Origin: Hyphomicrobiales bacterium | GTDB lineage: Bacteria; Pseudomonadota; Alphaproteobacteria; Rhizobiales; Xanthobacteraceae | Length of the DNA stretch: 34,887 nucleotides | Direction of reading: 5' to 3' | Assembly (NCBI GenBank): GCA_027307405.1 | Contig: DAHUXA010000020.1 | Coordinates: forward strand, 1-34,887 | Part shown: positions 10,557 to 18,382 of the stretch, one piece after another | Layout of the letters: each line of letters opens with the position of its first letter | Numbering within the stretch: the stretch's first letter is position 1 | The notes under the pieces: model-generated | Databases searched by the model: none | Told to the model about the DNA's origin: nothing | Seen by the model: only the letters and a program-made list of their open reading frames with translations | Position numbers and translations under genes: made by a program

Positions 10557-10581
10557 GGAACTGCACCTTGTCTGCGGCGTT
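10557..10581 (+). promoter_or_regulatory. EcfG-type general-stress promoter, GGAAC-N16-CGTT
   Basis: GGAAC (10557-10561), 16-nt spacer, CGTT (10578-10581); 29 nt before ATG at 10611. Confidence 0.75.
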
Positions 10582-10610: not shown

Positions 10611-10808
10611 ATGCGCGTCCTCATCGGAATTCTTCTCGGCATCATACTCACCGTCGGCGGTGCCTACCTTTATGATTCCCACAATGCGGCGACAGCCGCG
10701 AACTCCGTCAACGTGGAGCGGCCGATGGTCAACTGGGATGTCGTCGGCAACAACTGGAATCGCCTCACGGAGCGGGCCCGTGCCGAGTGGGTCCGGCTAG
10801 CCGGCTAA
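10611..10808 (+). CDS. 65-aa membrane miniprotein (paralog of 14881..15021)
   Basis: MRVLIGILLGIILTVGGAYLYDS...RPMVNWDVVGNNWNRLTERARAEWVRLAG; ORF track start 10497 rejected because the EcfG promoter lies inside it. Confidence 0.8.
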   Translation: MRVLIGILLGIILTVGGAYLYDSHNAATAANSVNVERPMVNWDVVGNNWNRLTERARAEWVRLAG

Positions 10809-14880: not shown

Positions 14881-15021
14881 ATGAGATTCATTCTGGGCGT
14901 TTTCGTCGGCGCGGCACTGATGGTCGGCAGCGCCTATTTGCACGACACCGGGATGGTGCGGGCGGGCCCGAAGCAGCCGTTCGTGAATTGGGACACGGTT
15001 ATTAAAATGTGGGGACGATAG
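14881..15021 (+). CDS. 46-aa membrane miniprotein (paralog of 10611..10808)
   Basis: MRFILGVFVGAALMVGSAYLHDTGMVRAGPKQPFVNWDTVIKMWGR; strong SD ggaggtgacatATG; shares AYLxD and P-x-VNWDxV with the 10611 protein. Not in supplied ORF track. Confidence 0.8.
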   Translation: MRFILGVFVGAALMVGSAYLHDTGMVRAGPKQPFVNWDTVIKMWGR

Positions 15022-15030
15022 TCGGCCTGA

Positions 15031-16638
15031 TCACATCCTAAATACACCAAACCGCGTCTCCGGCACCGGCGCATTAAGCGTTGCGGAGAACGCCAGCGCC
15101 AGCACACGGCGCGTTTCCGACGGCGCGATGATGCCGTCGTCCCACAACCGCGCAGTGGCGTAATAAGGATTGCCCTCGGTCTCAAATTGATCGCGCAACG
15201 GTTGTTTAAATTCTTCCTCCTCGACTTCTGACCATTTGCCGCCGCCCGCCTCGATATTGTCGCGCTTGACGGTCGCCAGCACGCTCGCTGCTTGTTCACC
15301 CCCCATCACGGAGATGCGTGCGTTAGGCCAGGTGAAGAGGAACCGAGGACCATAAGCGCGCCCGCACATACCGTAATTTCCGGCGCCGTACGAACCGCCG
15401 ATGATGAGCGTGATCTTGGGGACCTGCGCGCAGGCGACTGCCGTCACCATCTTCGCGCCGTCTTTAGCAATCCCACCGGCCTCGTACTCACGTCCAACCA
15501 TGAAGCCGACAATGTTTTGCAAGAACAGGAGCGGAATGCGGCGCTGGCAGCAAAGCTCGATGAAGTGCGCGGCCTTAAGTGCGCTTTCGGAAAAAAGAAT
15601 TCCATTGTTACCAAGAATGCCAATCGGCATCCCGTGAATGTGTGCGAAGCCCGCAACCAATGTCGAGCCGTATAGCGCTTTGAATTCGTCGAACTCGGAC
15701 GCGTCTACGACGCGGGCAATGACCTCACGCACATCGTACTGTTTCTTCAGATCGACCGGCACAATTCCGTCCAGCTCGTCCCCGTCGAGTGTGGGATCGC
15801 GTGATTTCATCAACGGAATGTTGACGGCCTTTTTCGTGTTCAAGTTGGCGGCAATACGACGCGCGATGCTCAGGGCATGATGATCATCTTGCGCGTAGTG
15901 GTCGGCGACCCCGGATTTGCGCGCATGCACGTCGGCGCCACCCAATTCCTCTGCGCTCACGACTTCGCCAGTCGCAGCCTTTACCAGCGGCGGACCGCCC
16001 AGAAAGATCGTGCCCTGATTCTTGACGATGATCGTTTCGTCCGACATGGCTGGCACATAAGCGCCGCCCGCCGTGCAGGAGCCCATCACGACCGCTATCT
16101 GAGGAATCCCGAGCGAAGATAGCGTTGCCTGATTGTAGAAGATGCGGCCGAAATGCTCGCGATCAGGAAAAACCTCGGTCTGGTGCGGCAAGTTCGCGCC
16201 GCCGCTATCGACCAGATAGATGCAAGGCAATCGATTTTCGCGTGCGATCTCCTGTGCGCGCAAATGTTTTTTGACCGTCATCGGAAAGTAGGTGCCGCCC
16301 TTGATGGTGGAGTCGTTGCAGACAACCACGCATTCGCGACCTTCAATGCGGCCGATACCGGTGATCAGGCCTGCTCCGTGAATCGCATCGTCATACATGC
16401 CGTTGGCGGCAAGCGGCGAGAGTTCGAGAAAAGGTGAACCGGGATCGATCAGATTCATAACCCGGTCGCGCGGCAACAACTTGCCGCGGCCCACATGCCG
16501 CTCGCGCGCCCGCTCCGGCCCGCCCAAAGCCGCTTCGTCGCGTCGCGTCTGCAACTCCGACACCAGCGCGCGCATTCGTTCCGCGTTGGCACGAAATTCG
16601 GCGGCTTTTTTATCGATCGATGACGACAGAATCGCCAA
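15031..16638 (-). CDS. mccB: Methylcrotonyl-CoA carboxylase beta subunit (carboxyltransferase)
   Basis: [67 protein letters not shown]-terminus [14 protein letters not shown]. Probable TTG start at 16638 preceded by gggaggggccc. Confidence 0.92.
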
Positions 16639-16725: not shown

Positions 16726-16751
16726 GGAACCGACCGGTGCGGCTAAACGTT
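16726..16751 (+). promoter_or_regulatory. EcfG-type general-stress promoter, GGAAC-N17-CGTT
   Basis: GGAAC (16726-16730), 17-nt spacer, CGTT (16748-16751); 57 nt before GTG start at 16809. Confidence 0.75.
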
Positions 16752-16808
16752 TCCGCACGAGGTCTCGACATCGTCGGGAAGTTCGAGGGGCATCCAGAGG
16801 AGGATTCC

Positions 16809-17531
16809 GTGAGGAAAGCTAAATTGCTGTCGACCGTAGCAGTGGCGTTGTTATTGAGCGCTGGTATCGCATCGGCACAGGGCATGGGTAAAGACACGCC
16901 GGAGCGCGCGCCTGCAGCGCAGCAAAATGCGCCAGCCGAAAAGGTCGCACCGTCAATGAAGGGCAGCGAGCATAAGGCCCCGCAAACGACCGGACAGGCC
17001 ACCCCTGACCTGAAGTCCGGGAAGAAGGAAACGACCGGCCAGTCGCCAAAGTCGGACGCTGACGACAAGGCCCAGACACCCAGCCGGTCAACCGACAAAA
17101 TGGGTACGGACAATAAGCCGGGCGCTGCTGCGACCGGTAAGTCCGACGTGAAGGACGAGAAGGTCCGCTCCAAAACCGAGCAAAACGCTCAAAGCCCGAA
17201 CGGCGCGGCATCGAAGTCGACCCAATCGACCACCGAGCAGAACCGGGCCACAACTGGGCAGGGTGCAGCGGGCGGATCAGCAAAGCTCTCGACTGAGCAG
17301 CGCACTAAGATCACCTCGATCATCAAAGAGCAGAAAGTGGAACGCGTAAATCTGAACGTGTCGATCTCGGTCGGAACGCGCATTCCCGCTAATGTGCGCG
17401 TGCACCCACTGCCTCAGCAGGTAATCGTGATCTATCCGGAATGGCGTGGTTACGACTACATTCTGGTCGGCGATGAGATCGTGATCATTAATCCGCGTAC
17501 GCACGAGATCGTGGCTGTTATCGAAGCTTAA
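16809..17531 (+). CDS. Secreted DUF1236-type protein with long low-complexity linker
   Basis: GTG start after aggagg; signal peptide (V)RKAKLLSTVAVALLLSAGIASAQ; Thr/Gln/Lys-rich linker; C-terminal YPEWRGYDYILVGDEIVIINPRTHEIVAVIEA as in DUF1236. Confidence 0.82.
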   Translation: MRKAKLLSTVAVALLLSAGIASAQGMGKDTPERAPAAQQNAPAEKVAPSMKGSEHKAPQTTGQATPDLKSGKKETTGQSPKSDADDKAQTPSRSTDKMGTDNKPGAAATGKSDVKDEKVRSKTEQNAQSPNGAASKSTQSTTEQNRATTGQGAAGGSAKLSTEQRTKITSIIKEQKVERVNLNVSISVGTRIPANVRVHPLPQQVIVIYPEWRGYDYILVGDEIVIINPRTHEIVAVIEA

Positions 17532-17555
17532 CCGTTGCACGACGGTATTTGGTTG

Positions 17556-17579
17556 GCGGCCGGGAACTTTCCCGGCCGC
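17556..17579 (+). terminator. Intrinsic hairpin GCGGCCGGGAA-CT-TTCCCGGCCGC
   Basis: Perfect 11-bp stem 24 nt after the DUF1236 stop; weak U-tract. Confidence 0.6.
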
Positions 17580-17633
17580 TTGCCATTTCATCGCCTTGTT
17601 TTGAAACTTTTTTCAAAAACCGCCCGGGTTCCG

Positions 17634-17658
17634 GGAACGACCGTCCCCCGCTTCCGTT
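17634..17658 (+). promoter_or_regulatory. EcfG-type general-stress promoter, GGAAC-N16-CGTT
   Basis: GGAAC (17634-17638), 16-nt spacer, CGTT (17655-17658); 47 nt before ATG at 17706. Confidence 0.75.
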
Positions 17659-17705
17659 GTTCCGATTGCCGCCAGCCGGCATCACCCCCCATAGGGAGGC
17701 AAACG

Positions 17706-17978
17706 ATGAAATCGTTGACCACTCTCACCGCCGTCGCCGCGCTCATCGCTGGTATTTCTTTTGCCCAGGCACAGGGCACGATGGGTTCGCCGTCTTCAGG
17801 CAGCAGCATGCAGAAGTCTCAAACAATCGGAAGTTCGCCGTTTTGTATTAACACATCAGCGAGCGGTGCGCTTAATTGCAAGTATGCAAGTATGGCAGCC
17901 TGCGAAAAAGACGCGAAGCCACAGAACCTGAATTGCTCGCCGAACCCGAACAAGGGCACGACCGGCTCAAGACAGTAA
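17706..17978 (+). CDS. Small secreted Cys-containing hypothetical protein (90 aa; possibly DUF3551-like)
   Basis: SD gggaggcaaacgATG; signal peptide MKSLTTLTAVAALIAGISFAQA; FCINTSASGALNCKYASMAACEKDAKPQNLNC. Family assignment tentative. Confidence 0.72.
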   Translation: MKSLTTLTAVAALIAGISFAQAQGTMGSPSSGSSMQKSQTIGSSPFCINTSASGALNCKYASMAACEKDAKPQNLNCSPNPNKGTTGSRQ

Positions 17979-18006
17979 AAGTTAGTAAGTGAGTAGTGGC
18001 GTAGCG

Positions 18007-18036
18007 GCCCCGCGCCGGATCCATCCGGCGCGGGGC
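18007..18036 (+). terminator. Intrinsic hairpin GCCCCGCGCCGGAT-CC-ATCCGGCGCGGGGC
   Basis: Perfect 14-bp stem shortly after stop at 17978. Confidence 0.65.
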
Positions 18037-18086
18037 TTCAACGCGCCGAAAAGACTTTTTTTCGCGGGTCGCGTGCGGCTTCGCAT

Positions 18087-18112
18087 GGAACGCGCGCGTG
18101 CATTGCGGCGTT
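18087..18112 (+). promoter_or_regulatory. EcfG-type general-stress promoter, GGAAC-N17-CGTT
   Basis: GGAAC (18087-18091), 17-nt spacer, CGTT (18109-18112); 38 nt before CsbD ATG at 18151. Confidence 0.82.
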
Positions 18113-18150
18113 TAATTATTGAGACCATCAATTAGCAAACGAGGACCACA

Positions 18151-18333
18151 ATGAACAAAGATCGCGTGCAAGGCAGCGTCGAACAAGCGAAAGGCAAGAT
18201 AAAAGAAGTGGCCGGCAAGGCGACCGGCGACACCAAGCTCGAAACCGAAGGCAAGGCTCAGAAGACCGCTGGCAAGCTGCAAAATACGATCGGCGGAATG
18301 AAGGATGCGGTGAAGGAAGCCGTCGACGATTGA
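18151..18333 (+). CDS. CsbD family stress-response protein
   Basis: MNKDRVQGSVEQAKGKIKEVAGKATGDTKLETEGKAQKTAGKLQNTIGGMKDAVKE is canonical CsbD. Confidence 0.95.
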   Translation: MNKDRVQGSVEQAKGKIKEVAGKATGDTKLETEGKAQKTAGKLQNTIGGMKDAVKEAVDD

Positions 18334-18364
18334 CGGCTGGCGGACCACACGTCCACTGCGGACG

Positions 18365-18382
18365 CCCGGCGCTTGCGCCGGG
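18365..18382 (+). terminator. Intrinsic terminator CCCGGCGC-TT-GCGCCGGG-TTTT
   Basis: Perfect 8-bp stem followed by TTTTCCGTTTT downstream of CsbD. Confidence 0.8.

Follow-up and report, generated by a model that had tools for sequence, protein, structure and literature searches.

The EcfG regulon of Sphingopyxis granuli TFA includes csbD as a direct target, its expression falling to 0.00 of the wild-type level in a double ecfG mutant, and further contains phyR, an HWE kinase and many envelope genes and genes of unknown function (PMC7083833). In Sphingomonas melonis Fr1, the EcfG regulon has been described with the consensus GGAAC-N17-20-GTT (PMC6599016). Across such regulons, many EcfG targets lack a known function. 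In Salmonella, yjbJ is under sigma-S control (PMC5437024), and in Rhizobium phaseoli the DUF1236 gene AMC88_RS16850, whose product is predicted to be periplasmic, shows one of the strongest inductions by aluminium stress, with no regulator given for it in the available text (PMC8909678). Among the papers covered by our literature search, none links DUF1236 with EcfG, none names DUF3551 and none pairs Pseudolabrys with the general stress response.

Here we analysed a 34,887-nt stretch of DNA (the window) from a draft genome totalling 4.1 Mb in 459 contigs. The host is a soil bacterium and a relative of Pseudolabrys. Judging from promoter-like motifs, hairpins and their conservation, three genes of the window, encoding a DUF1236 protein, a small secreted protein and the classical stress protein CsbD, very probably belong to the alphaproteobacterial general stress response as a co-regulated set in which each gene is transcribed on its own. 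These genes, a fourth gene and the associated signals are located as follows.

10557..10581, + strand: fourth predicted EcfG-type promoter, exact GGAAC-N16-CGTT, 29 nt before the ATG at 10611
10611..10808, + strand: 65-aa protein, membrane-type, with one N-terminal hydrophobic segment
16726..16751, + strand: predicted EcfG-type promoter of the DUF1236 gene, exact GGAAC-N17-CGTT, 57 nt before the GTG at 16809
16809..17531, + strand: DUF1236 protein, 240 aa, GTG start, with a Sec-type signal, a low-complexity linker and a folded C-terminal domain
17556..17579, + strand: hairpin after DUF1236, perfect 11-bp stem, without a clear T-tract
17634..17658, + strand: predicted EcfG-type promoter of the middle gene, exact GGAAC-N16-CGTT, 47 nt before the ATG at 17706
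17706..17978, + strand: middle-cassette protein, 90 aa, secreted, four Cys, DUF3551-like, with orthologs in the syntenic slot
18007..18036, + strand: hairpin after the middle gene, perfect 14-bp stem
18087..18112, + strand: predicted EcfG-type promoter of csbD, exact GGAAC-N17-CGTT, 38 nt before the ATG at 18151
18151..18333, + strand: CsbD, 60 aa, encoded by the genome's only csbD (PF05532, E 1.7e-19)
18365..18382, + strand: hairpin after csbD, perfect 8-bp stem, then TTTTCCGTTTT; intrinsic-terminator-like

Scanning the whole window for exact GGAAC-N16/17-CGTT returned four matches, all on the + strand and each 29-57 nt 5' of a start codon, within the 20-100 nt range used here to define regulon members. 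An earlier sequence-only reading had likewise counted four correctly placed motifs, three of them 57, 47 and 38 nt ahead of DUF1236, the 90-aa gene and CsbD, and had placed a perfect hairpin with a stem of 11, 14 or 8 bp after each of these genes; every coordinate given there matches, the fourth motif having been counted without a position, and the hairpins are all present. Its estimate of about 0.5 chance matches has the right order of magnitude and is slightly low, dinucleotide-shuffled windows containing 0.75 sites on average; none of 100 such windows reached four. The clustering of three of the genome's 76 motifs within 1.4 kb (p=0.024 under random placement) is modest evidence by itself.

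Those 76 exact matches (50 forward and 26 reverse, a split borne out by a fixed-spacer search) are no more than composition predicts and do not exceed the 110 matches of a reversed control pattern. The motif by itself is therefore poorly specific, and roughly half of its genomic matches are probably something other than promoters. Such numbers are what one would expect if the motifs were chance matches of a nine-base pattern in a GC-rich genome, but their placement argues otherwise. Motifs were found 15-100 nt before a called start in 34 of 76 cases, versus 0 of 30 for the reversed control (Fisher p 1e-6), and within genes in 17 of 76 cases versus 23 of 30 (Fisher p 4e-7), so that they are enriched ahead of starts and depleted within genes genome-wide. 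The count of 34 is conservative, because our home-made gene caller overlooked the 90-aa gene and misplaced the phyR start. Each of the genome's three DUF1236 genes carries an exact motif 34-57 nt upstream, the two outside the window at 37 nt (contig C255, locus L043) and 34 nt (contig C407, locus L053). These two genes encode proteins of 138 and 125 aa, respectively, without the long linker. The sole csbD also has an exact motif upstream; of the DUF3551-type genes, seven in total, the copy in the window is alone in having one. Other genes downstream of exact motifs encode a Dps/ferritin-like protein, a DUF4142 protein, two DUF3309 proteins, a low-affinity iron permease, a CBS protein and a holin-superfamily membrane protein.

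The locus was compared in 39 relatives, most from the same genus. An exact motif lies ahead of csbD in 33 of 34 orthologs, ahead of DUF1236 in 32 of 36 and ahead of the fourth gene in 28 of 29 genus orthologs; for the middle gene, 16 of 24 have an exact motif upstream and 6 more have one mismatch. Genome G028 carries one mismatch in the motif of all three cassette genes, and G035 has no recognisable motif ahead of DUF1236. Reversed and scrambled controls at the orthologs were seldom better than two mismatches and never exact. When all gapped pairs of a 5-mer and a 4-mer were counted, GGAAC..CGTT with a gap of 16-17 ranked top in all three slots. Pairwise identity in the spacers and in the flanks of the DUF1236 promoter is 0.26-0.33, near chance, and the stretch directly 3' of the csbD motif is better conserved (identity 0.53). 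Beyond these relatives, in the Bradyrhizobium/Tardiphaga group, an exact motif occurs in the start region of 37 of 44 DUF1236 loci and the control in 0 of 44. With an exact motif kept in about 30 diverged genomes, this de novo ranking and a match at every DUF1236 gene, the conservation data refute a chance origin, to which we assign a negligible probability.

Contig C400 carries the genes for EcfG, NepR and PhyR at one locus, where phyR lies on the + strand and the pair ecfG and nepR on the − strand, together with an HWE kinase gene; the phyR product belongs to the PhyR family by NCBIfam. An exact motif stands ahead of phyR; for nepR-ecfG, the motif is found 98 nt upstream with one mismatch. 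Many ECF sigma factors share the GGAAC −35 element, and the promoters might be real but read by one of these rather than by the nepR-adjacent EcfG. Paralogous EcfG factors, for their part, are frequent in alphaproteobacteria according to the available text of PMC3892343. Recognition by another sigma factor is nonetheless very unlikely, since the CGTT −10 element and the exact motif ahead of phyR are consistent with auto-regulation by EcfG, and in Sphingopyxis the EcfG targets include both csbD and phyR (PMC7083833). The sequence-only reading had interpreted the locus as an EcfG general-stress cluster and had proposed a genome-wide motif scan with start distances and a check of motif conservation upstream of orthologs. 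Both were run: matches are not as common within genes as elsewhere, and the motif is kept amid diverged spacers and, for the most part, diverged flanks. Together with the top rank among gapped pairs and the presence of the regulators, placement and ortholog conservation support that interpretation, and the locus constitutes a well-supported prediction of an EcfG sub-regulon.

Of the three hairpins, only that of csbD has a clear T-rich tract 3' of it; the first two lack one and are therefore terminator-like rather than canonical intrinsic terminators, so read-through is possible. This, with the genes on the same strand and gaps of ~170 nt, would accommodate a single operon transcribed from the first promoter, with only a minor part for the inner promoters and hairpins, but each gene retains its own motif, and cassette order and number vary among relatives while the promoters stay. 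A DUF3551-like gene comes first in G022, four cassettes are present in each of G025, G031 and G038, several relatives have no middle gene, and in G019 and G040 the csbD motif is kept though DUF1236 is absent from the locus. We accordingly rate a single operon as unlikely. Stems of at least 8 bp occur 3' of 56-76% of cassette genes among the relatives, versus 0.3-1.8% in shuffles, and this frequency, combined with the varying order under retained promoters, argues for separate transcription units, short of proof. As a separate observation, the stem of the post-DUF1236 hairpin (17556-17579) and of its relatives (L198, L203, L208, L214, L216) often has GGAAC/GTTCC, which resembles the promoter −35 box.

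The window DUF1236 protein matches PF06823 with E 2.2e-18 and 66.2 bits, above the Pfam cut-off of 32.4. A full-length structure model from 8 sequences was discarded (pLDDT 42), and a model of the C-terminal domain alone (window 17280-17528), from 69 sequences, reached pLDDT 93.9. The nearest solved fold is the C-terminal domain of CigR (4ew5; TM 0.58, probability 1.00, E 9e-3), one of the RcnB-like periplasmic proteins. By sequence the two show a weak profile match (E 0.03) and 18% identity, a level at which function is not transferable; the modelled fold suggests that the DUF1236 domain is distantly RcnB/CigR-like. In G008, G018, G026 and G034, the DUF1236 slot holds the exported low-complexity half only, with an exact motif still upstream. 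Near the start of the mature proteins (window 16905-16960), APAAQQNAPAEKVAP is strongly conserved amid the variable low-complexity region, and it is retained in proteins that have lost the folded domain.

The middle cassette stands out as most unusual: its predicted signal peptide is kept, and its mature region is hypervariable and low-complexity. The signal-like start of the middle proteins has a median identity of 74%, versus 28% for the mature part, and some end with a four-Cys DUF3551-like tail while others lack Cys. Against DUF3551 (PF12071), the window protein scores 23.9 bits, below the Pfam cut-off of 26.5, and a relative of 77 aa, also from this slot, passes it at 34.7 bits, for which reasons we label the window protein DUF3551-like only. 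NCBIfam returned no model for either DUF1236 or the middle protein. CsbD covers the full PF05532 domain (positions 1-53 of 53; 69.9 bits vs a cut-off of 40). Hydrophilins are defined by more than 6% Gly and a hydrophilicity index above 1 (GRAVY below −1); the window proteins narrowly miss that label, with GRAVY of −0.85, −0.69 and −0.95 and Gly of 7.8, 10.4 and 13.3%. Neither Pfam nor NCBIfam gave a family for the 65-aa product of the fourth gene. A second, degenerate stretch matching it (window 14881-15042, 35% identity, two stops) adjoins a carboxyl transferase gene and is possibly a decayed copy.

In the mechanism we propose, stress would lead the HWE kinase to phosphorylate PhyR, which in its phosphorylated form would bind up the anti-sigma factor NepR and free EcfG to guide RNA polymerase to GGAAC-N16/17-CGTT. 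DUF1236, the DUF3551-like gene and csbD would each be transcribed from their own promoter, with transcripts ending at or near their own hairpins. The encoded proteins probably act as protectants or envelope stabilisers. Two are predicted to be exported and have mature parts of low complexity, and one of these two would bear a small CigR/RcnB-like folded domain; the third, CsbD, is presumably cytoplasmic. That the two secreted proteins serve as envelope effectors is a plausible conjecture. More tentatively, and with slightly more doubt than conviction, we suggest that Pseudolabrys may possess a modular EcfG array in which the middle slot encodes a fast-evolving, exported, low-complexity protein, with signal peptide and promoter retained as the mature part turns over and a four-Cys DUF3551 tail comes and goes. 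In the DUF1236 slot, too, the folded domain could disappear with the low-complexity part retained. Counting CsbD, the array would provide the cell with sequence-tolerant protectants on either side of its inner membrane. Two uncharacterised exported families would in this way be tied to the EcfG response by predicted promoters conserved across many genomes, the DUF1236 link reaching Bradyrhizobium, and they offer specific candidates for envelope protection of soil alphaproteobacteria under drying, salt or metal stress.

Comparison with the described systems sets these predictions in context. The window CsbD matches E. coli YjbJ (1ryk) by sequence (E 2.1e-8); the window csbD has a predicted EcfG-type promoter in place of sigma-S or sigma-B control. 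In Sphingomonas melonis Fr1, as here, GGAAC-type motifs typically lie tens of bases ahead of the start, and small secreted and envelope proteins are also targets, although gene content differs (PMC6599016). Sphingopyxis granuli TFA belongs to a different alphaproteobacterial order than the window host, and the available text of PMC7083833 names neither DUF1236 nor a DUF1236/DUF3551/csbD array; its EcfG regulon nonetheless has the same consensus, GGAAC-N16-CGTT, and its auto-regulated arrangement is matched by the regulator locus reported here (PMC7083833). The mechanism is of a known kind. What is new is the assignment of DUF1236 and the middle gene, how deep their conservation runs, and a modular array whose middle slot varies.
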